Source: a virus. From it: 25,384 nt of DNA. Under the pieces are notes generated by a model that worked only from the letters and a program-made list of their open reading frames with translations, was not told the DNA's origin and searched no databases. The stretch covers positions 1 through 25,384 of IMG/VR virus record IMGVR_UViG_3300009703_000095; one strand, given 5' to 3'. Below, piece by piece: positions 3-19,715 of this stretch (the first letter of the stretch is position 1; the number at the start of each line of letters is the position of its first letter). The position numbers and the translations under genes are program-made.

Positions 3-2612
3 TCAATACAGTATGTAAACAAATCTGAAGACCCTGGTAATTTAAGTTACATTCTTTTGTCTGAAGATCAGTTTAAAGCTTCTAGTTCATTTACATTTAC
101 TTCTGGTGTAAATGCTATAAAGGATGCTAGGATTGCATCAGAAAGTCCATCTAAAAACCTTCCAATAATGAAGAAGATTAATGATGCATCTAAGGAGCAG
201 GGATTTAACACAAGAAAAGCCCAAGGAAAAATAACACAAGCAATAAAAACTTTGCAAAGAGCTGTTGAGCCTTTGATGACTCTTGAAGGATACGATGAAT
301 TAGAGACTCAAAGAATGCTTACCAAAGGTGAGATAGGTAAATGGCATAATCAAGGCAGAGTTATATTTGATGTTATATTCCAAGCTACCCCCGAAGAAAA
401 GAAAGAGATAATAAAATACTTTGAAACAAGGGATGCATCTCCGGATAAACTGCCAAATAGAAAAGTTAATGTGGCTAAACTTCCTACTGTTCTTAGCGGA
501 ACCAAGGGAACAGGAAGGTTATCAGAAGAAAAATCTATTAGGGATTCAGTTGTTGAGGCTAAGAAACAAATTGAAAAACTTGGGGCTGACTTAGTTGCTG
601 CTGGCCTTATCACACAAGACCAGTATTCTCAGTGGAGGGGTAAGTATCTTCCTCGCGTATACTTTGAGTATCTTGATAAAGGCGACAGAATACCTATGGG
701 TATAGGCACTAGCCAAATGAATTACACAAAGGTTAGGTCTGCTCATGAAAACTTTTTAAAGGATGTTGTTGAGGGTAGAATAGAAGACCCTGCTTTCTTG
801 GCGGGAAGATACGTATCTATGGCGGGAGCTGACTTAGCTACTATCAATTACCTTTCTTTTTTGGCTGCTGACACAGGGAATAATGGCTGGGTTCTTCCAA
901 ATCAAATAGTTAAGTACGATAATATGGAAGGTACTGTTGGATTTTGGAATGAAAAGATTGATGCAATTAGAAGGAATGCAGCAAGAGAGAGAGGTCTAAA
1001 TAATTCTGCAAAAGCTGACTCATATGAAAAAATTGCTAATCAAATTCAAAAAGAAGTTGACAAGGTAACTGCTAATAAAATTGTATCTGATCCTAAAAAG
1101 TATAAACAAGTTCCTGACAATCCTCGTTATGGCGCTATGCGTGGATTGTATGTTAGAAAAGAAATTATTAATGATGTTCTAGGAACACAACAGTTGTATA
1201 CTAATAATGAATTTCTTAACGGTGCATTGTCTTATACTGCGAAAGCGCAAAAAGTATTTAAGTATACAAAAGTTCCAATGAACATTCCTACACAGGCAAG
1301 GAATGTTATATCAAATATAGTTTTGATGGATGTATCTGGAACAAACTTTTTTAGGATACCTGGATTAATAAGCAGGGCTATCACAGATATTGCAAGTGAT
1401 GGCAAGTATGCTCAGCTTGCTAGAAAGTATGGAATAGAGAGTACTACATTTACCGCTGAAGAACTTGTTAATATTGATGCTCAACTTAGTAAGATAAAAG
1501 CTAAGGAAGATAGTTGGGGAGGAATGTGGGCAAAGACTAAAGTCTTCTTTAATGATTATGTGGATGTATTTGGTAGGACTTACCAGAAAACTGAGGTTAT
1601 GTTTAAGGTAGCTAAGATGATTGACTTTATGGAGAATCATGGAAAGTCTGAGTCTGAAGCAGCAAAGCTAGCTAACGAAGCTCTTCTGGATTATAGCAAT
1701 GTATCTCAAGCCGTAAGGGTTATAAGAACAATGCCTTTGGGTTCTCCATTTATTACGTTTAATCTTAAAGCAGCCTCTCAGATGGTTAGAAATATCAAGA
1801 ACCATCCTATTGCTGTTGCTAAGTACGCTGCTATTCCATATGTAGTTGCTCAGATGTTGCTTGAAAATAATTCTGAACTTGAAGAAGATGATATTCCTGA
1901 GATGAAAAAACTTGTTGCTGAATACATGGAGGATAATGCAACATCTTTTATACTTCCTTGGAAAGATCAGGAAGGAAGGCTTAGAGTATTTGATATGGGT
2001 TACTTCTTGCCTTGGGGTGCTCATCTAAATATGATGAAGAACCTTTATCAGGGTGAGTTTGGAAAAGCTTCTAGTGTTCCAGGATTTTTTGGTGGTTGGA
2101 TTGGTGCTCCGATTGGAATGATCACAAATGTCGATCCATTTACTAAGCAAGAAATTACTAATGATGCTGATCCTCCAATGCAGCAGTATCAAGATATGAC
2201 CGCATTTCTTCTTAGCTATATGATGCCTCCTATGATTATGCCTAGAAATAAATCAGGTGATGTTATAAGTAATGGTGGTCAATTAATAAAAACAGGTATG
2301 GCTATGGGCTTTATTGATGGTAATGTAGATGCTGATGGTCTTCCTAAATATACCATACCAGAATCTCTTATGTCTTGGGCTGGCGTTAACTTTTCTAAAT
2401 TTGATAAAAATACTGCACAAAGAAAAATTTATTTTAAAGCTTTGGATGTTAAAAATACTTATAAAAGACTTAAGAAGTTCTTGAAAGACCCTAACATAAG
2501 CGAAGAACAAAGACAAAGATTAATATCTGAGTATACAGCTAATGCTCTAAGACTTCAAACTGAATTGCAAGAAATGCAGAATGCTTATGCAAAGGTAAGA
2601 GATGTCTTATAA
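3..2612 (+). CDS. Large polyvalent-type phage protein, C-terminal part (LPD38-like), 5' truncated
   Basis: The reading frame is open to the left edge, so the true start lies outside the window; the TTG at 57 is only the first start-like codon in view. About 869 residues are visible. Numbering from 57, residues about 405-425 (PTQARNVISNIV) and 557-575 (RTMPLGSPFITFNLKAAS), with the YQKTEVMFKVAKMIDFM stretch between them, resemble the LPD38 domain of phage polyvalent proteins. Those are very long, multidomain proteins thought to be carried in the virion and delivered with the DNA. Residues near 586-600 form a short hydrophobic stretch, and the last 60 residues are helical and charged (possible coiled coil). 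No enzyme motif is visible in this part. It overlaps the next gene by 11 bases, as in a late rightward operon. The LPD38 assignment is from memory of the family; the ejection role is inference. Confidence 0.8.
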   Translation, partial: SIQYVNKSEDPGNLSYILLSEDQFKASSSFTFTSGVNAIKDARIASESPSKNLPIMKKINDASKEQGFNTRKAQGKITQAIKTLQRAVEPLMTLEGYDELETQRMLTKGEIGKWHNQGRVIFDVIFQATPEEKKEIIKYFETRDASPDKLPNRKVNVAKLPTVLSGTKGTGRLSEEKSIRDSVVEAKKQIEKLGADLVAAGLITQDQYSQWRGKYLPRVYFEYLDKGDRIPMGIGTSQMNYTKVRSAHENFLKDVVEGRIEDPAFLAGRYVSMAGADLATINYLSFLAADTGNNGWVLPNQIVKYDNMEGTVGFWNEKIDAIRRNAARERGLNNSAKADSYEKIANQIQKEVDKVTANKIVSDPKKYKQVPDNPRYGAMRGLYVRKEIINDVLGTQQLYTNNEFLNGALSYTAKAQKVFKYTKVPMNIPTQARNVISNIVLMDVSGTNFFRIPGLISRAITDIASDGKYAQLARKYGIESTTFTAEELVNIDAQLSKIKAKEDSWGGMWAKTKVFFNDYVDVFGRTYQKTEVMFKVAKMIDFMENHGKSESEAAKLANEALLDYSNVSQAVRVIRTMPLGSPFITFNLKAASQMVRNIKNHPIAVAKYAAIPYVVAQMLLENNSELEEDDIPEMKKLVAEYMEDNATSFILPWKDQEGRLRVFDMGYFLPWGAHLNMMKNLYQGEFGKASSVPGFFGGWIGAPIGMITNVDPFTKQEITNDADPPMQQYQDMTAFLLSYMMPPMIMPRNKSGDVISNGGQLIKTGMAMGFIDGNVDADGLPKYTIPESLMSWAGVNFSKFDKNTAQRKIYFKALDVKNTYKRLKKFLKDPNISEEQRQRLISEYTANALRLQTELQEMQNAYAKVRDVL

Positions 2613-13422: not shown

Positions 13423-14547
13423 CTATTCAATGTCTATTACTTCACCAAAAGGACACAGAGTATCCTTCATACCATAGTTCACCCATATCACTGGATGGTC
13501 TGGTTCATACTGAGGAAACGAACCGTACAAATCTGTAAAATATATAAGCACGGCTGGGTCCTCATCATTCTCAATGACCCAATCAAACGCAGGCTCAAAG
13601 GCAGTGCCACCTCTACCTACTATCTCTAGTGCATCAGGTAGGTCATCCTTTGAGAACCTTCGTATATGATTAACGTCAGTATCCACATCCATAATGATAA
13701 GCTCATCGACATCACAGTCCTCCACTACTGATACTATCTCAGACCAAGCATCAATCAATAGATCAGTGTTCATTGATCCACTCGTATCAACCGCAAAGAT
13801 AATCTTACGCAGTCCATCAATCTTTGTGATGGATGGTAGGTATAAATCCTTACCTATAAACCTACGATTGGGTCGTCTCCAAGAGTGCTCATCTCTCATA
13901 GGTTCAGTAGCGAGGGTATATAACTTATCTCTCCAGTCTACCTTTGGATTACGTATCTGATTGATCAGTTCTTTGAAGTGACCTGGGATAGTACCTCTGT
14001 TCTTACTGCAAGCATTGGCTGCTGCAATAATCTTAGTCTTCCACCTGTTCTCAGTCTCTGACTTGTCTGCCTCACTCTGACTCTCACCATCTTTGAAGTG
14101 ACCAGTGCTAGGCATATCTGCAAGGCATTGGATTGTAATCTGCTTTGCGTTCTTGATCAGGTCATCATAAACGATGTCAGTATTCCAGGTCTTGTCATAC
14201 TTCTTATCAAGAAGAACATCAGCAGGAGGCTTCATATCATTATCAACAAGCAACCTATTGATAACATAATCACCCGCCATATTCCATATAGTGTGATCAC
14301 GAGCACCCTTTCTTGTTAGATGAAAGAAAGCAGGGTGCATGGTCTCATGCATCAAAATAAATTTAAGATCATCCATGCCTAACGTCTGAATAAACTCACT
14401 GTTGTAATAGATAAACTTACCATCGACAGCAAACGTAGGTATACTATTGTCTTCTTTGATTGGCATAGACAAAAGCAAATGCCCAAAGAAAGGGAAGTCC
14501 ATCAAGCATTGCGCTCTTGCTATCTGTAACTTGCGTTCAATATCCAT
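13423..14547 (-). CDS. VWA-like protein with N-terminal HExxH metallopeptidase-like domain
   Basis: A 374-residue protein when started at the ATG at 14547, which overlaps the upstream gene by 11 bases. Residues 67-71 are HETMH, an HExxH zinc site, followed by DHTIWNMAGDYVIN. This resembles the putative metallopeptidase domain paired with VWA-like (DUF2201) domains. The C-terminal part is a VWA domain with a near-complete MIDAS: DTSGS at about 254-258, a Thr in GRGGTAFEPA, and an Asp in YFTDLYG. VWA proteins of this kind work with MoxR/CobS-type AAA+ ATPases, one of which is encoded two genes upstream. Whether the zinc site is catalytic is unknown. Confidence 0.85.
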   Translation of the reverse strand: MDIERKLQIARAQCLMDFPFFGHLLLSMPIKEDNSIPTFAVDGKFIYYNSEFIQTLGMDDLKFILMHETMHPAFFHLTRKGARDHTIWNMAGDYVINRLLVDNDMKPPADVLLDKKYDKTWNTDIVYDDLIKNAKQITIQCLADMPSTGHFKDGESQSEADKSETENRWKTKIIAAANACSKNRGTIPGHFKELINQIRNPKVDWRDKLYTLATEPMRDEHSWRRPNRRFIGKDLYLPSITKIDGLRKIIFAVDTSGSMNTDLLIDAWSEIVSVVEDCDVDELIIMDVDTDVNHIRRFSKDDLPDALEIVGRGGTAFEPAFDWVIENDEDPAVLIYFTDLYGSFPQYEPDHPVIWVNYGMKDTLCPFGEVIDIE

Positions 14548-15466
14548 ATGTTCCGTCCAGTTTAGACATCGTTTGTTCAAAGGTTTCTTCGCTACAAATA
14601 TAACCTATCACTTTATTGATGTGTCGATAAGCCTCCTTCTGTTTTGTTTCATTGCCTCTAAGATCATGAGCATAGAGGTACAGATTTTCTTTCATATACT
14701 TCTCTAATTCTCTTAGAAAATAGTCATCAGTAAAATTCAACCCGCTTAGTGAGTCGATTAGATTTCTAAGACCTTCCATCCTGCTCTCATATACTGTCAC
14801 CCTATCAGATGAAAGTATATGTTTAAGACTGTGCATCTCACTACTAATCCTGGATGTTAGAAGTTCCTTCATCTTTTCCATGCTCTTGGCAACGCTATCA
14901 TATACCTCTTTGCGTATACGTTCAGCCTCAAGTTCACCAACTGAAGCCCGCAAGTCCAGGTTCTGTTCCTCTGGTATAGGCCTGAGATACTGATCCATCT
15001 TGAACCTGTCAGTGAACTCATCAACTGTTAGATAGTCCGCACGATTAAACATACCACCTTTCTTGTTGAGCCTTACCTCTGCCTCATCAAGAGCCTCCTG
15101 ATACTTGCCATCCTTCAGCGATTGTATCTCAGAATCCCACAAAGATTTCTGCTTACGCCAAATCCCTGCAAAATCAAGGAGTTTCTTGTTAGGTAGTATG
15201 AATACACCACCACTCTCATGCAACCAAGGCAACGTCATAGTTTTAATCGTTGAACTTGGTGACTCAACCATATTAGATTTAATATTTCTAAAAGGCTGAA
15301 GATATTTAGATGAGATTGTTATCTTATTAAAGTTACCAGAGTCACGACTACCCCCCTTCACGTTGTAATCACTCGCAACCTTCTCCGATATGCCTCTGTC
15401 AACCTTGCGCCCTGAAGGTATAGACATTGACACACTTAACAACATACCCTTCTTAGATAAAGACAT
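14537..15466 (-). CDS. Hypothetical protein between AAA+ and VWA genes (DUF3150-like?)
   Basis: A 309-residue, largely helical and charged protein with GGAGATCATT before the ATG. The N-terminus (MSLSKKGMLLSVSMSIPSGRK) is a strand-like segment; the rest is predicted helix (ELEAERIRKEVYDSVAKSMEKMKELL). Position and build resemble the DUF3150-type proteins encoded between MoxR ATPase and VWA genes in phages and integrative elements. I match it by context more than by motif. It probably forms a complex with the two neighbours. Confidence 0.65.
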   Translation of the reverse strand: MSLSKKGMLLSVSMSIPSGRKVDRGISEKVASDYNVKGGSRDSGNFNKITISSKYLQPFRNIKSNMVESPSSTIKTMTLPWLHESGGVFILPNKKLLDFAGIWRKQKSLWDSEIQSLKDGKYQEALDEAEVRLNKKGGMFNRADYLTVDEFTDRFKMDQYLRPIPEEQNLDLRASVGELEAERIRKEVYDSVAKSMEKMKELLTSRISSEMHSLKHILSSDRVTVYESRMEGLRNLIDSLSGLNFTDDYFLRELEKYMKENLYLYAHDLRGNETKQKEAYRHINKVIGYICSEETFEQTMSKLDGTYGY

Positions 15467-15482
15467 AATGATCTCCTTTTAA

Positions 15483-16496
15483 TTAAGCCACACCTAATAC
15501 ATCAAGGTTTTTGACTGCCCACTCTACAAACTCAGGTGCTTCCTCAATCTCAGGAGTAATCTTCCTGGCCTCAGTCACACTTGTTACAGCATACTCAGCA
15601 GGTAACCTATCAAGATAAGCCATGATGTTCTTCATGTTATCAGGCTTCATCCAGTACGCAAGAGAGTAAGCGATAGCATACTGAGCACTAGGATTCTCAG
15701 GAAGCATTGCTTTCTTAGGGTCTTTGATTACCTGTTCTGGATCAGGCACCTGATCTGCTACCTCCTCATGACTCATGAACTCAGCAGCAGCACCCTCTCC
15801 CACCAATGCAGAGTAAAGCTGGCGCTTGATAGAACTAGATGGATTAGTTCCTCTAACTTGTGCTAACTTCTCCCATGTTCTAGGCGTTGGGTAAGCCCAT
15901 GATCCACCCTTATCAGGTCTCTTATGTGCAAGATTACCATGCTGTTTAAGGAAGGAGGTTACAATTGAATCAACCCCCTTAGAAGTGAAGTGAGTCAACA
16001 ACTCAGGAACATCCAACACAACCATGCAATGCATGAACCTATTTTGCAGTGGGTAAGGAAGCCCTCGGTTAACCCCGCCGTGCTCCTTCTTGTTCATCAT
16101 GGCTACAATATGCCAACCCTCTGGGAACACATAACTTCCCACCCTTTTCTCAAGAATCAACTGCTGTGTTGCTACGATTGTTGCCTGTGATCCGTCACCG
16201 AACTCATCAAGAATGAACAAACCTTGTTCACCATCACGTTCTACGTTAGGTAACAGAGCAGGCGTAGCAAAATAAGTAAACCCATCGCGTACTGTAGGCA
16301 CACCGCTCAAGTCTACTGGATCAAGTTGAGATGACCTAACATCTTTTGTTGCTCCGTACTCATCATTGCCGTACTTGGTTACAATCTCAGTCTTACCAAT
16401 GCCTGGCTCGCTAGTAAACAGGGTTGATATACCAAGGCTAGTCGCAACCCTTAGAATTTCTGGTATCTGACTAGGTGTGATAGTAACTTCAGACAT
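15483..16496 (-). CDS. MoxR/CobS-like AAA+ ATPase
   Basis: A 337-residue ATPase; the ATG at 16496 follows GAGGAT with good spacing. Walker A SEPGIGKT (29-36), Walker B LFILDEFGD (93-101), sensor 1 around AMMNKKE (132-138) and an arginine-finger candidate Arg153 (LQNRF) are visible, then a helical lid domain. Such ATPases act as ring-shaped remodellers with VWA partners: MoxR in protein maturation, CobS with CobT in cobalt insertion into the corrin ring. Here the VWA partner lies two genes downstream. A cobaltochelatase role is conceivable given the B12-dependent reductase, but the HExxH domain of the partner argues for a protein-remodelling role. Confidence 0.88.
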   Translation of the reverse strand: MSEVTITPSQIPEILRVATSLGISTLFTSEPGIGKTEIVTKYGNDEYGATKDVRSSQLDPVDLSGVPTVRDGFTYFATPALLPNVERDGEQGLFILDEFGDGSQATIVATQQLILEKRVGSYVFPEGWHIVAMMNKKEHGGVNRGLPYPLQNRFMHCMVVLDVPELLTHFTSKGVDSIVTSFLKQHGNLAHKRPDKGGSWAYPTPRTWEKLAQVRGTNPSSSIKRQLYSALVGEGAAAEFMSHEEVADQVPDPEQVIKDPKKAMLPENPSAQYAIAYSLAYWMKPDNMKNIMAYLDRLPAEYAVTSVTEARKITPEIEEAPEFVEWAVKNLDVLGVA

Positions 16497-16506
16497 AATA
16501 TTATCC

Positions 16507-16722
16507 TCAGTGTATTGAAAGTGAAGGCCCATAGGATGCGATGACAAGCAATGAAGCACACTTATCCTTCGCTACGTTGCATGATATGTGGGGGCTAGCG
16601 TCATCGGGGCCTAGTCGATAGACAGTAACCTCTTTCCCATCATGCATCTCTTTTACTGGCATAGCACTACCTATAAGGTCATCAAATGAGATGACAATAT
16701 CTTCATCATCATACGCATTCAT
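16507..16722 (-). CDS. Small hypothetical protein
   Basis: A 71-residue protein (MNAYDDEDIVISFDDLIGSAMPV...) with an acidic N-terminus and a beta-rich middle (GKEVTVYRLGPDDASPHISC). GGGAGG lies 9 bases before the ATG. It overlaps the upstream gene by 14 bases and ends 10 bases before the AAA+ start. Unrecognised; possibly a regulator or partner of the AAA+ set by position only. Confidence 0.6.
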   Translation of the reverse strand: MNAYDDEDIVISFDDLIGSAMPVKEMHDGKEVTVYRLGPDDASPHISCNVAKDKCASLLVIASYGPSLSIH

Positions 16723-17873: not shown

Positions 17874-18005
17874 TTATTTTTCCTCTTTCTTTGGGGGTGA
17901 TGGAAAGTACCTTACAATTCTCCATGTTTTATTTACTGGTTTACGTGATACACGCCACCCCTCCGGCACAACATAAGAGCCAATTTTACGCTCATCAGTC
18001 ATCAT
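17874..18005 (-). CDS. 43-aa hypothetical protein
   Basis: A short gene starting MMTDERKIGSYVVPEGWRVS and ending FPSPPKKEEK. GGAGATA precedes the ATG pair (18005 or 18002). The start shares a base with the stop of the 30-aa membrane peptide gene (TAATG) and the stop is 3 bases before the next ATG. The compact joins support a real gene; function unknown. Confidence 0.65.
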   Translation of the reverse strand: MMTDERKIGSYVVPEGWRVSRKPVNKTWRIVRYFPSPPKKEEK

Positions 18006-18097
18006 TATCTCCACAGTTTCATAAGTTTATACTGACCAAATACCAATGCACCAAAGCCCACAAAGTAGGCCAAGAACAACACAATATCTACAAACAT
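18005..18097 (-). CDS. 30-aa single-span membrane peptide
   Basis: The peptide starts MFVDIVLFLAYFVGFGALVF and ends GQYKLMKLWR: about 18 hydrophobic residues followed by a basic end, so an N-out, C-in membrane span is likely. The ribosome site AGGAGGTGTACA is the best in the whole leftward block, suggesting high translation. It is the first gene after the 831-base non-coding tract. Small phage membrane peptides of this type can act on host envelope, lysis timing or superinfection, but nothing here tells which. Confidence 0.7.
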   Translation of the reverse strand: MFVDIVLFLAYFVGFGALVFGQYKLMKLWR

Positions 18098-18304
18098 TGT
18101 ACACCTCCTAAGTTTATGCCCATGAGACGCTCTGTAAGCACCGTCACGAGCCGTTAAGACATGACCCTATACCACCCTAGTGGGTAGGCTATGTTGTTCA
18201 CTCACCCAGCCATCCCCGCAATACCCCAGGTGAGCAGTTTTACATTCATCGTGAGCCGTCAACTTGGTGTGCGTCCTTGCCACCTGCAACCCTGACCTAA
18301 ATGT

Positions 18305-18322
18305 CCGTCATACTCAGGACGG
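18305..18322. repeat. Stem-loop copy 1, loop ATACTCAG
   Basis: CCGTC pairs with GACGG around the 8-base loop ATACTCAG. The loop and the inner GTC/GAC pairs are shared with copies at 18487-18506 and 18922-18935. On the transcribed - strand the loop reads CTGAGTAT. Confidence 0.7.
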
Positions 18323-18486
18323 TATAGTGCGTATCCATTCGGCCATACCTCAGTTTTTATCCCTCGGATCACAGAACCCCGACGATTACAGGCTCGACGG
18401 TCACCAGAAGTGGGGGAATCGACTACCCAATACTCTTGGCATACTGTTTACTGGTACGCACTGAAGAAATCGGTGAGCAGTTATTG

Positions 18487-18506
18487 ACAGTCATACTCAG
18501 GACTGT
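18487..18506. repeat. Stem-loop copy 2, loop ATACTCAG
   Basis: ACAGTC pairs with GACTGT around the same ATACTCAG loop. Compared with copy 1 the fourth pair has changed from C-G to A-T and a sixth pair is added, so pairing is kept while sequence differs. Confidence 0.7.
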
Positions 18507-18755
18507 AGGAGCAGTGCCGTCGCACAAGGGTAAACAATGGTCGCCACATATGGACGCTGACACCCTATGACATGACGAGACGCTGTAGATTCAATCGAAT
18601 ATTTTGTATGACGATGTAGTTCGCCATTATCGGCTACGATACTATTCGATAACCTACAGAACTTACACTACCAGACTCATGCCACCCCTAAATTAGCCGA
18701 TAAGTGCAGGGTATCCCTATACGGCCATCAAATACCCCGAAGTCAGTTCATTTTA

Positions 18756-18774
18756 CCACCATGACTCAGGGTGG
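18756..18774. repeat. Related stem-loop, loop ATGACTCAG
   Basis: CCACC pairs with GGTGG around ATGACTCAG, one base longer than the loop of copies 1 and 2 and otherwise alike. The stem sequence is unrelated, so only the loop is shared. Confidence 0.5.
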
Positions 18775-18921
18775 ATTCACTGGGGCCAACATCATCCCCT
18801 TACCGGAATTCGGTGAACCGTTGCACATCTGACGGGTAAATCGACCCTTCACCCACGGTTCCACAAGCATCTGGGTAGTTGGCAGTTTATCGCCGTACCT
18901 AGGCGGAGTAGTTTAACTCTA

Positions 18922-18935
18922 GTCATACTCAGGAC
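18922..18935. repeat. Third GTCATACTCAGGAC copy, overlapping a stop codon
   Basis: The 14-base core is identical to copies 1 and 2, but only 3 base pairs (GTC/GAC) form. On the - strand the TGA stop of the 54-aa gene (18931-18929) lies inside the loop sequence CTGAGTAT. Confidence 0.6.
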
Positions 18936-19093
18936 GACTCATCTTTCTCGTAGACAGACAAGTAACTATCCAACCCTCTCTTGACCTTTCTCAAGGCGTC
19001 AAGATCAGGGCAAATACGAATCAGCATCGACACAATACTGCTTACATCTCTAGAATCAAAAGGATATTCTTTCCAGTTCCGATTATCGTACAT
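18929..19093 (-). CDS. 54-aa hypothetical protein
   Basis: A short gene, MYDNRNWKEYPFDSRDVSS onward, ending VYEKDESS. GCAGGAGAGATC gives a clear ribosome site before the ATG at 19093. The middle (IVSMLIRICPDLDALRKVKRGLDSYL) is an amphipathic helix pair. It ends inside a copy of the repeated loop element. No family recognised; it shares the early region with the 186-aa gene upstream. Confidence 0.65.
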   Translation of the reverse strand: MYDNRNWKEYPFDSRDVSSIVSMLIRICPDLDALRKVKRGLDSYLSVYEKDESS

Positions 19094-19112
19094 GATCTCT
19101 CCTGCATTGGCT

Positions 19113-19130
19113 GACTGCTTGAGGGATTAC
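19113..19130 (+). repeat. Left arm of 18-base inverted repeat flanking the 186-aa gene
   Basis: GACTGCTTGAGGGATTAC here and its inverted partner at 19753-19770 match at 17 of 18 positions. The arms bracket the gene at 19155-19715. The match does not extend beyond 18 bases. Confidence 0.8.
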
Positions 19131-19149
19131 CCTATCGCTAGGGTAACCC
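19123..19149 (-). terminator. Strong hairpin after the 186-aa gene, no U tract
   Basis: TTACCCTA (19127-19134) pairs with TAGGGTAA (19139-19146) around TCGC; after a single bulged A, GGG (19123-19125) pairs with CCC (19147-19149): 11 pairs in all. On the - strand it lies 5 bases after the stop codon and before the ribosome site of the 54-aa gene. No U run follows, so it may be a stabiliser, processing site or weak terminator. Confidence 0.55.
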
Positions 19150-19154
19150 GCAAC

Positions 19155-19715
19155 TCAGGCTGCTTTATGCAACCAATCTGGAGTATCGTCAGAGAAAGAT
19201 TCCTGACTTGCACCAAGACCCACATCCTTCATGGTGGATTCGAGCGCTACAAACTCGTCATAGGCATCCTCAATCTGACTCTTAGCCTCATCGCTATGAC
19301 TGGCTATCTGAGTGTTCAACTGACGGAGCGCCTTCTTGAGCATCCACGAAGGCATCTCTGAGTCTAACTCAAACTCATACCAACGCTGAGCCTCAAGTTG
19401 GTCAATCGGGAATTCCTCCTGACCGCTGTCCTTAGTGAACGTAGAATTCTTCGCCTTCTTGAAGCGATTATTCTTAACGTCCCAGTTAAGGCCACAAGTC
19501 TCGGAAACATACCCGATAAACTTCTGCTTGTTTACACCGTTACATTTGGTGATACCAGACCCAAGATTGGTCAGATACGTGCTATCGCCGTGAAGCCAGT
19601 AGTGATACATCGAACTGACTGCCAACTCATGCACACGATCCTGCATAGTCATGATCGCTTTTACAGCACGTTTGATCGCCGTAGCGAGAGTCTTGCCATC
19701 TTTGATGATTTCCAT
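19155..19715 (-). CDS. 186-aa hypothetical early protein flanked by inverted repeats
   Basis: Starts MEIIKDGKTLATAIKRAVKA; AGAGGAACTGTAACG precedes the ATG at 19715. Residues about 18-50 form a helix-rich segment (MTMQDRVHELAVSSMYHYWLHGDS). The region TNLGSGITKCNGVNKQKFIGYVSETCGLNWD carries two cysteines, a basic patch FKKAKN follows, and the C-terminal third is an acidic helix (DEAKSQIEDAYDEFVALE). It is not a family I can name with certainty. It lies early in the leftward transcript with long structured gaps on both sides and 18-base inverted arms, so it may be specially controlled. Confidence 0.75.
   Translation of the reverse strand: MEIIKDGKTLATAIKRAVKAIMTMQDRVHELAVSSMYHYWLHGDSTYLTNLGSGITKCNGVNKQKFIGYVSETCGLNWDVKNNRFKKAKNSTFTKDSGQEEFPIDQLEAQRWYEFELDSEMPSWMLKKALRQLNTQIASHSDEAKSQIEDAYDEFVALESTMKDVGLGASQESFSDDTPDWLHKAA

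Follow-up and report, generated by a model that had tools for sequence, protein, structure and literature searches.

Phages often lack classical terminators between their genes, and the tuning of decay within their long transcripts is a largely open field. Stable RNA structures located behind stop codons in polycistronic transcripts are known from the intercistronic CUUCGG hairpins of T4 and from bacterial 3' stabilisers of the REP or terminator type, which are thought to shield the RNA upstream of them. In eukaryotes, the xrRNAs of RNA viruses stop the 5'-3' exonuclease Xrn1. Small H-type pseudoknots are also found in other settings: readthrough in murine leukaemia virus involves a recoding pseudoknot of this type, and the type III antitoxin RNAs (ToxI) are short H-type pseudoknots present several times per transcript. 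In phage mRNA, the leader of gene 32 of T2 and T4 contains a pseudoknot 67 nt upstream of the gene that is bound by gp32 and acts as a gene-specific translational operator (PMC3014915).

The locus analyzed here belongs to an IMG/VR virus record, the whole 25,384 bases of which are called the window. It encodes a B12-type ribonucleotide reductase, a primase-helicase, a dUTPase, an Erf-like recombinase, a pyrimidine-dimer glycosylase-like gene product and both terminase subunits. Adjoining genes (13423-16559, minus strand), whose products are a DUF2201 metallopeptidase/VWA-like protein and a phrog_1297 ATPase, resemble a MoxR-VWA pair within a phage replication module, and an 851-aa ORF (57-2612, plus strand) has no Pfam or PHROGs match. 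The genes flanking the non-coding tract under study are read leftward. A first-pass annotation had described in this tract three exact copies of GTCATACTCAGGAC, which an exact-match scan of the contig locates at 18307-18320, 18490-18503 and 18922-18935, spanning 629 bases. The stems it had drawn around two of them (CCGTC/GACGG for the copy at 18307, ACAGTC/GACTGT for that at 18490) and its fourth hairpin, CCACC-CTGAGTCAT-GGTGG at 18756-18774, were found as described. When up to three mismatches are allowed, GTCATACTCAGGAC has 8 matches in place of the 1.75 expected, and none of 100 shuffles reaches 8.

Each repeated hairpin is half of an H-type pseudoknot of about 27 nt. The conserved eight bases had been taken for a free, protein-binding loop, which is wrong, since six of them (URRRYA) pair with URYYYA downstream of AAAC. 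The TGAGTA of the supposed loop is complementary to TRCTCA, and among the listed viral-contig matches to the leftward-strand 14-mer GTCCTGAGTATGAC, most of the intergenic ones have AAACTGCTCAC or AAACTACTCAC within a few bases downstream. The consensus reads NNN-C-URRRYA-W-NNN-L3-AAAC-URYYYA, often with a further C: a helix S1 of 3-5 bp, a C, a helix S2 of 6 bp and a loop L3, either short or expanded, that ends in AAAC. The unpaired C and the AAAC core are invariant. The element thus has the two helices, with a hairpin loop pairing downstream, that define an H-type pseudoknot.

Both S1 and S2 show strong covariation. In a scan that fixed the loop and the downstream motif and left the stem free, the stems among the matches listed were almost any three Watson-Crick pairs. 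S1 forms three Watson-Crick pairs in 66 of 70 unique copies chosen blind to S1 (mean 15 and maximum 26 in 1000 shuffles), and in the remaining four a loop extended by 1-2 bases appears to allow pairing. At least five of the six S2 pairs are formed in 54 of 62 copies chosen blind to S2, that is by S1, C, AAAC and an upstream stop codon with no S2 condition and with the fetched motif excluded. S2 variants include TGGACA/TGTCCA, TGGGCA/TGCCCA, TAAGCA/TGCTTA, CAAGCA/TGCTTG and TGAACA/TGTTCA, the frequency of variants being underestimated as most loci were fetched via the canonical motif; a loop class CTAGGTA/TGCC(T) is present in other phages (e.g. G018), and in the DW2 copy only four S2 pairs form. 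In an alignment of 59 sequences, 95.8% of cells are paired and 8 of 10 pairs show double-sided changes, with at most 43% for slid controls, the copies being related and the statistics not phylogeny-weighted. A descriptor scan returned 259 matches and, with permuted anchors, 2-11. The earlier idea, a leftward-read RNA whose structure combines a conserved core with paired changes, therefore stands, and the covariation it called for is present. On the other hand, the whole tract (863 nt, either strand) folds no better than shuffles (z 0.48), so that overall stability gives no evidence of structure and the evidence is the covariation.

The window contains four copies, and doubtfully a fifth, which separate non-coding modules (Table 1).

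Table 1. Elements, modules and neighbouring open reading frames of the tract, listed in the leftward direction of reading.
Feature	Positions	Strand	Details
54-aa ORF	18929..19093	-	Shine-Dalgarno GCAGGAGAG; stop inside copy 3
Pseudoknot copy 3	18905..18935	-	S1 GTC/GAC, L1 C, S2 TGAGTA, L2 T, L3 TAGAGTTA+AAC, S2' TACTC(C)
Possible degenerate fifth copy	18881..18906	-	CCG-CCTAGGTA-CGG-CGAT-AAACTGCC; by eye and pattern, weak
Non-coding module A, between copies 3 and 4	18775..18904	-	about 98% identity to L006
Divergent pseudoknot copy 4	18739..18774	-	S1 CCACC/GGTGG, loop CTGAGTCAT
Non-coding module B, between copies 4 and 2	18507..18738	-	absent from L006
Pseudoknot copy 2	18474..18506	-	S1 ACAGTC/GACTGT, S2 TGAGTA (18499-18494), AAC TGCTCA (18479-18474)
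Non-coding module C, between copies 2 and 1	18323..18473	-	
Pseudoknot copy 1	18231..18322	-	S1 CCGTC/GACGG, AAC TGCTCA (18236-18231)
Non-coding module D, copy 1 to next gene	18098..18230	-	includes Shine-Dalgarno AGGAGG
30-aa hydrophobic peptide ORF (MFVDIVLFLAYFVGFGALVFGQYKLMKLWR)	18005..18097	-	next gene

Copies 3 and 2, which have a short L3, are matched by the covariance model R1 (E 6e-4 and 6.5e-5, respectively). The L3 of copy 1 is 67 nt long and closed by a stem of its own, ACATTTA (18304-18298)/TGAATGT (18248-18242). In the divergent copy 4, GAGTCA (18767-18762) can pair with TGACTT (18745-18740) after AAC, so that the longer loop goes with a matching downstream change. The related contigs L004, L005 and L006 keep copies of the element, as the first pass had asked of relatives, with one module missing from L006. 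In the latter, copy 1 has CTGTC/GACAG and GCATTTA/TAAATGC, which are compensatory changes in both stems, and the S2' strand of copy 3 is TGCTC, with pairing retained through U-G. Since it is the module carrying copy 4 that L006 drops, the tract has the make-up of a modular array, composed of pseudoknots and non-coding modules. The conservation of the modules retained in L006 is about that of the flanking genes. Homologues of the modules were found only in three close relatives, with no match to an Rfam family, and an exact 20-mer of module A occurs only in three related contigs.

The tract is indeed devoid of coding sequence from 18928 leftward to 18098, where an ORF for a membrane peptide with a strong Shine-Dalgarno sequence follows. 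It had been presented as a single 5' leader, which it is not necessarily: the 54-aa ORF stops on a TGA (18931-18929) within the copy at 18922, which makes the tract intercistronic. Neither this ORF, which is replaced by other sequence in L006, nor the 30-aa ORF has a Pfam match. A strong hairpin, GGGTTACCCTAGCGATAGGGTAATCCC (19110-19166, minus strand; local fold z about -4), lies directly 3' of a 186-aa gene; it is kept in L006 and has no U-tract.

No named family accounts for the element, as previously suspected. No Rfam 15 family, ribozymes included, matched it at or above the curated cut-off, tRNAs alone reaching gathering scores, and gathering and permissive thresholds together gave only chance matches besides tRNAs. 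ARAGORN detected no tRNA array in the window, and neither the tract nor the contig's right half had a BLAST match among phages. In open papers the motif strings retrieved only unrelated primers or sequence strings, and topic searches of the open literature, several of them narrow, yielded related reading and no description of the element.

The family is not confined to this tract or phage and is widespread in other phages. It is present in at least 169 loci, 56 of which contain two copies or more, and reaches nine copies per phage in the 53 kb genome around L058, with several different, internally matching S2 helices. Synechococcus phage S-EIVl has seven copies. Named carriers (S-SM2, S-EIVl, S-CRM01, S-H35, S-RIM4, NMeng1, Labelle, the Corynebacterium phage phi673, D6E, GR1, KC5a, phig1e, StB12, DW2, Javan407, SIO1, ParKuw1, PM1, the crAss-like cr7_1 and Moorella MTATph1) infect Cyanobacteria, Firmicutes, Actinobacteria, Proteobacteria and Bacteroidota. 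Besides dsDNA phages, at least one ssDNA microvirus carries the element. When 84,980 genomes of bacteria and archaea were scanned with a strict pattern, four matches were obtained. With the covariance model, 30 of 195 genomes of the Saccharibacteria class, to which one of these belongs, had matches, but the 190 genomes from the class containing the Altererythrobacter match gave none beyond the seed genome itself. In Saccharibacteria, the gene before the pseudoknot often belongs to DUF7249/phrog_871, a family also known from phages, and one locus is chromosomal according to its neighbours DnaB and RecR. Matches in the Rheinheimera phage Barba were rejected, being within coding sequence and without the 5' part of the element. 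Some loci have further repeated RNA features. In L177, L186 and L198 a conserved hairpin RNA, TCTCTGCTAAGCCC...GGTATGCCTGAGAT, adjoins the pseudoknots, with no Rfam match in L177 and L198. In L036, L087, L090 and L112 a repeated segment of the GGTGGAAGTCCTNAAAA type and tandem partial pseudoknots lie just upstream of the pseudoknots, which suggests duplication of the element.

The element is usually found shortly after a stop codon. In all, 140 of 276 unique copies start 5-20 nt after a same-strand stop, versus 16 of 276 in the mirror test (ORFs of at least 60 codons), the distances in the IMG/VR loci resting on simple open frames as gene calls. The spacer is never 0-4 nt and has its mode at 6 nt (30 cases), and it can reach 20-30 nt with an intervening hairpin. 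Open frames of 100 codons or more on the same strand enclose only 26 of the 276 copies, versus 53% of random 30-mers. The same position is seen in the annotated phage S-EIVl, where five of six pseudoknots lie 6-12 nt past annotated stops (spacers of 6, 12, 7, 6 and 6 nt) with the next start 20-26 nt downstream. It is seen again in the Saccharibacteria copies, which the covariance model supplied as a separate set that had no part in establishing the rule, and most of which lie 6-13 nt past a stop; several are between convergent genes, with no same-strand gene closely downstream. In L254-L265 from this class, the DUF7249/phrog_871 stop is repeatedly followed by the pseudoknot 6-10 nt on, with a convergent gene opposite in several. 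Structure exceeds that of shuffles in the 45-70 nt upstream of the element (mean z -1.42), often through a hairpin containing the stop codon, and not in the downstream sequence (-0.26). Just behind stops and on the transcript strand, the element thus occupies the position of a 3'-end stabiliser, and we infer from its placement that it serves the upstream side more than the downstream side. As its main link is to the stop of the gene upstream, it does not favour the simple reading of the tract as the 5' UTR of the membrane peptide.

The tight spacer of 6-8 nt would suit a ribosome-linked role as well. According to the main rival explanation, the pseudoknot would contact the terminating ribosome, so that 70S ribosomes neither slide on after termination nor read through into the following gene or tRNA, which would uncouple neighbours. 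Pseudoknots that contact ribosomes have a spacer similar to the sharp minimum of about 6 nt observed here between stop and S1, and the preference for UAA described below and the occupation of both gene-gene and gene-tRNA junctions would also be expected. Such an insulator is less easily reconciled with the 20-30 nt spacers that hold a hairpin, with the copies between the non-coding modules of the window and with those in leaders devoid of an upstream gene, and we consider it unlikely.

The stops ahead of the element are enriched in UAA (99 of 139, versus 415 of 817) and depleted in UGA, which argues that ribosomes should not run into it. This speaks against a recoding signal, by which the pseudoknot would stimulate stop-codon readthrough or frameshifting. 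Known recoding stimulators lie at a similar distance from the A-site codon, 6-8 nt, as the element does. In-frame extensions are, however, mostly shorter than 35 codons and often end within the pseudoknot, tRNAs can lie directly downstream, and it is the leaky UGA that is depleted. Readthrough was rejected, there being neither an open extension nor a leaky stop, and recoding as a whole is the least probable of all the explanations considered.

The relation to tRNAs is equally asymmetric. The element often ends 3 nt ahead of a tRNA, and it lies just ahead of 24 of the 88 tRNAs that have no tRNA upstream; it occupies one of 41 tRNA-tRNA junctions and is found behind one of 127 tRNAs. S-CRM01 has one copy just behind a tRNA. 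Because tRNAs have their own end protection, they would rarely need a pseudoknot on their 3' side. Since the tRNAs 3 nt downstream would have no promoter of their own, the pseudoknot is presumably transcribed through. An element acting at the DNA level (promoter, packaging or replication site) or as a transcription terminator would agree with the intergenic, repeated and strand-biased copies and with the terminator-like hairpin that lies nearby in a few cases, such as L231 and L013. Such roles are very improbable, considering that complementarity is maintained despite variable L3 inserts with stems of their own, that no U-tract follows the element and that 3 nt leave no space for a new promoter. 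We rejected an intrinsic terminator on account of the missing U-tract and of the tRNAs starting 3 nt downstream, and a promoter on account of the latter distance.

Boundaries between mRNAs, tRNAs and non-coding modules could also be sites of processing, at which a self-cleaving ribozyme or the substrate of a universal host nuclease would cut precursors into units. The invariant unpaired C and AAAC core would suit such a site, and the wide host range would call for a host-independent or universal factor. RNase P has been reported to cleave a pseudoknot in vitro, a substrate that needed a 3' RCCA motif (PMC12710915); this motif is not conserved in the element. Moreover, RNase P already supplies cuts beside tRNAs, the element is nearly absent from tRNA-tRNA and post-tRNA junctions, and convergent gene ends are occupied where no same-strand sequence follows closely. 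Processing at the element therefore appears distinctly unlikely.

The neighbouring genes were searched for a shared function, and no dominant family emerged either upstream or downstream; such diversity is what would be expected of a general punctuation. One recurrent setting is found in siphophages of Staphylococcus, Lactobacillus, Streptococcus and Geobacillus, where the element has a constant spot ahead of the scaffold and major capsid genes. Six loci (L228, L229, L230, L231, L272 and L275; Lactobacillus, Staphylococcus, Geobacillus-type and Streptococcus siphophages) have it between the portal/MuF block and the scaffold-major capsid genes. Some copies lie in leaders about 20 nt ahead of a start codon with no gene just upstream. 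In L134, L135, L143, L153 and L192 the order is a promoter-like TATAAT, two hairpins, the pseudoknot, 20 nt and a small gene of zinc-ribbon-like type; this could be a leader or a small RNA of its own. The scaffold and capsid setting could mean a role for the downstream gene, and together with the leader copies and the S-CRM01 copy behind a tRNA it speaks against a 3'-end role. One could thus think of a 5' element, be it an mRNA stabiliser, a translation enhancer or a protein-binding operator resembling the T4 gene 32 pseudoknot, all the more as many copies lie 19-30 nt ahead of a start codon. Yet distances to the following start codon vary widely (median 87) and those to the stop are sharp, convergent cases have no close same-strand downstream gene, and the position 3 nt ahead of tRNAs does not suit such a role, which we regard as quite improbable. 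A gene 32-type operator, with one unique leader of one autoregulated gene, is not what was found either, with up to nine copies per genome beside diverse genes.

We propose that the pseudoknot is a 3'-end element protecting the RNA upstream of it against 3'-5' decay and also dividing transcripts, a reading to which we give an even chance. Phages would close an RNA unit at its 3' end with the pseudoknot, usually positioned at the nearest site left free by the terminating ribosome (about 6 nt), and it would be transcribed within a longer precursor. Cleavage downstream, whether by RNase P where a tRNA adjoins or by another endonuclease, would let 3'-5' exonucleases advance as far as the pseudoknot and stop there. 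The upstream mRNA or non-coding RNA would then retain its stop codon and have a stability separate from that of what follows. In the window, the pseudoknots would split the 54-aa ORF and several non-coding modules within one leftward transcript. An exonuclease barrier accounts for the placement, the clearance from the stop, the strong stops and the use between non-coding modules. A broader and somewhat more tentative hypothesis is that of a phage-wide RNA punctuation mark which, with no dedicated phage protein and across many phyla, would define and protect mRNA 3' ends behind stops, as a bacterial 3'-5' counterpart of the exonuclease-resistant viral RNAs. If this is true, a broad family of regulatory RNAs of about 27 nt has been overlooked by annotation in dsDNA phages of five phyla and in at least one ssDNA microvirus. 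A simple descriptor could annotate the element, which marks gene ends in viral dark matter, and it could be used in synthetic operons as a compact part for stabilisation.

Compared with known systems, the proposed role of intercistronic 3' stabiliser is already known in kind from the T4 hairpins and the bacterial repeats. Like these, the element is a compact RNA structure just behind stop codons; unlike them, it is a sequence-conserved H-type pseudoknot found across many phage families, without a UUCG loop or a U-tract. It shares with the T2/T4 gene 32 leader a small H-type pseudoknot in phage mRNA, but it adjoins unrelated genes, mostly behind their stops. Recoding pseudoknots such as that of murine leukaemia virus are likewise of the H type and 6-8 nt behind a stop, whereas here a strong UAA is preferred and no open extension follows. 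The ToxI RNAs are also short H-type pseudoknots, several per transcript; the copies described here vary in sequence and sit between unrelated genes, with no toxin gene association seen and no Rfam match. The xrRNAs resemble it as small pseudoknotted folds proposed to halt an exonuclease, with the difference that the block proposed here is 3'-5' and in bacteria, and that no Rfam family matched. Once its mechanism is known, there is a fair chance that the element will form a class of its own.
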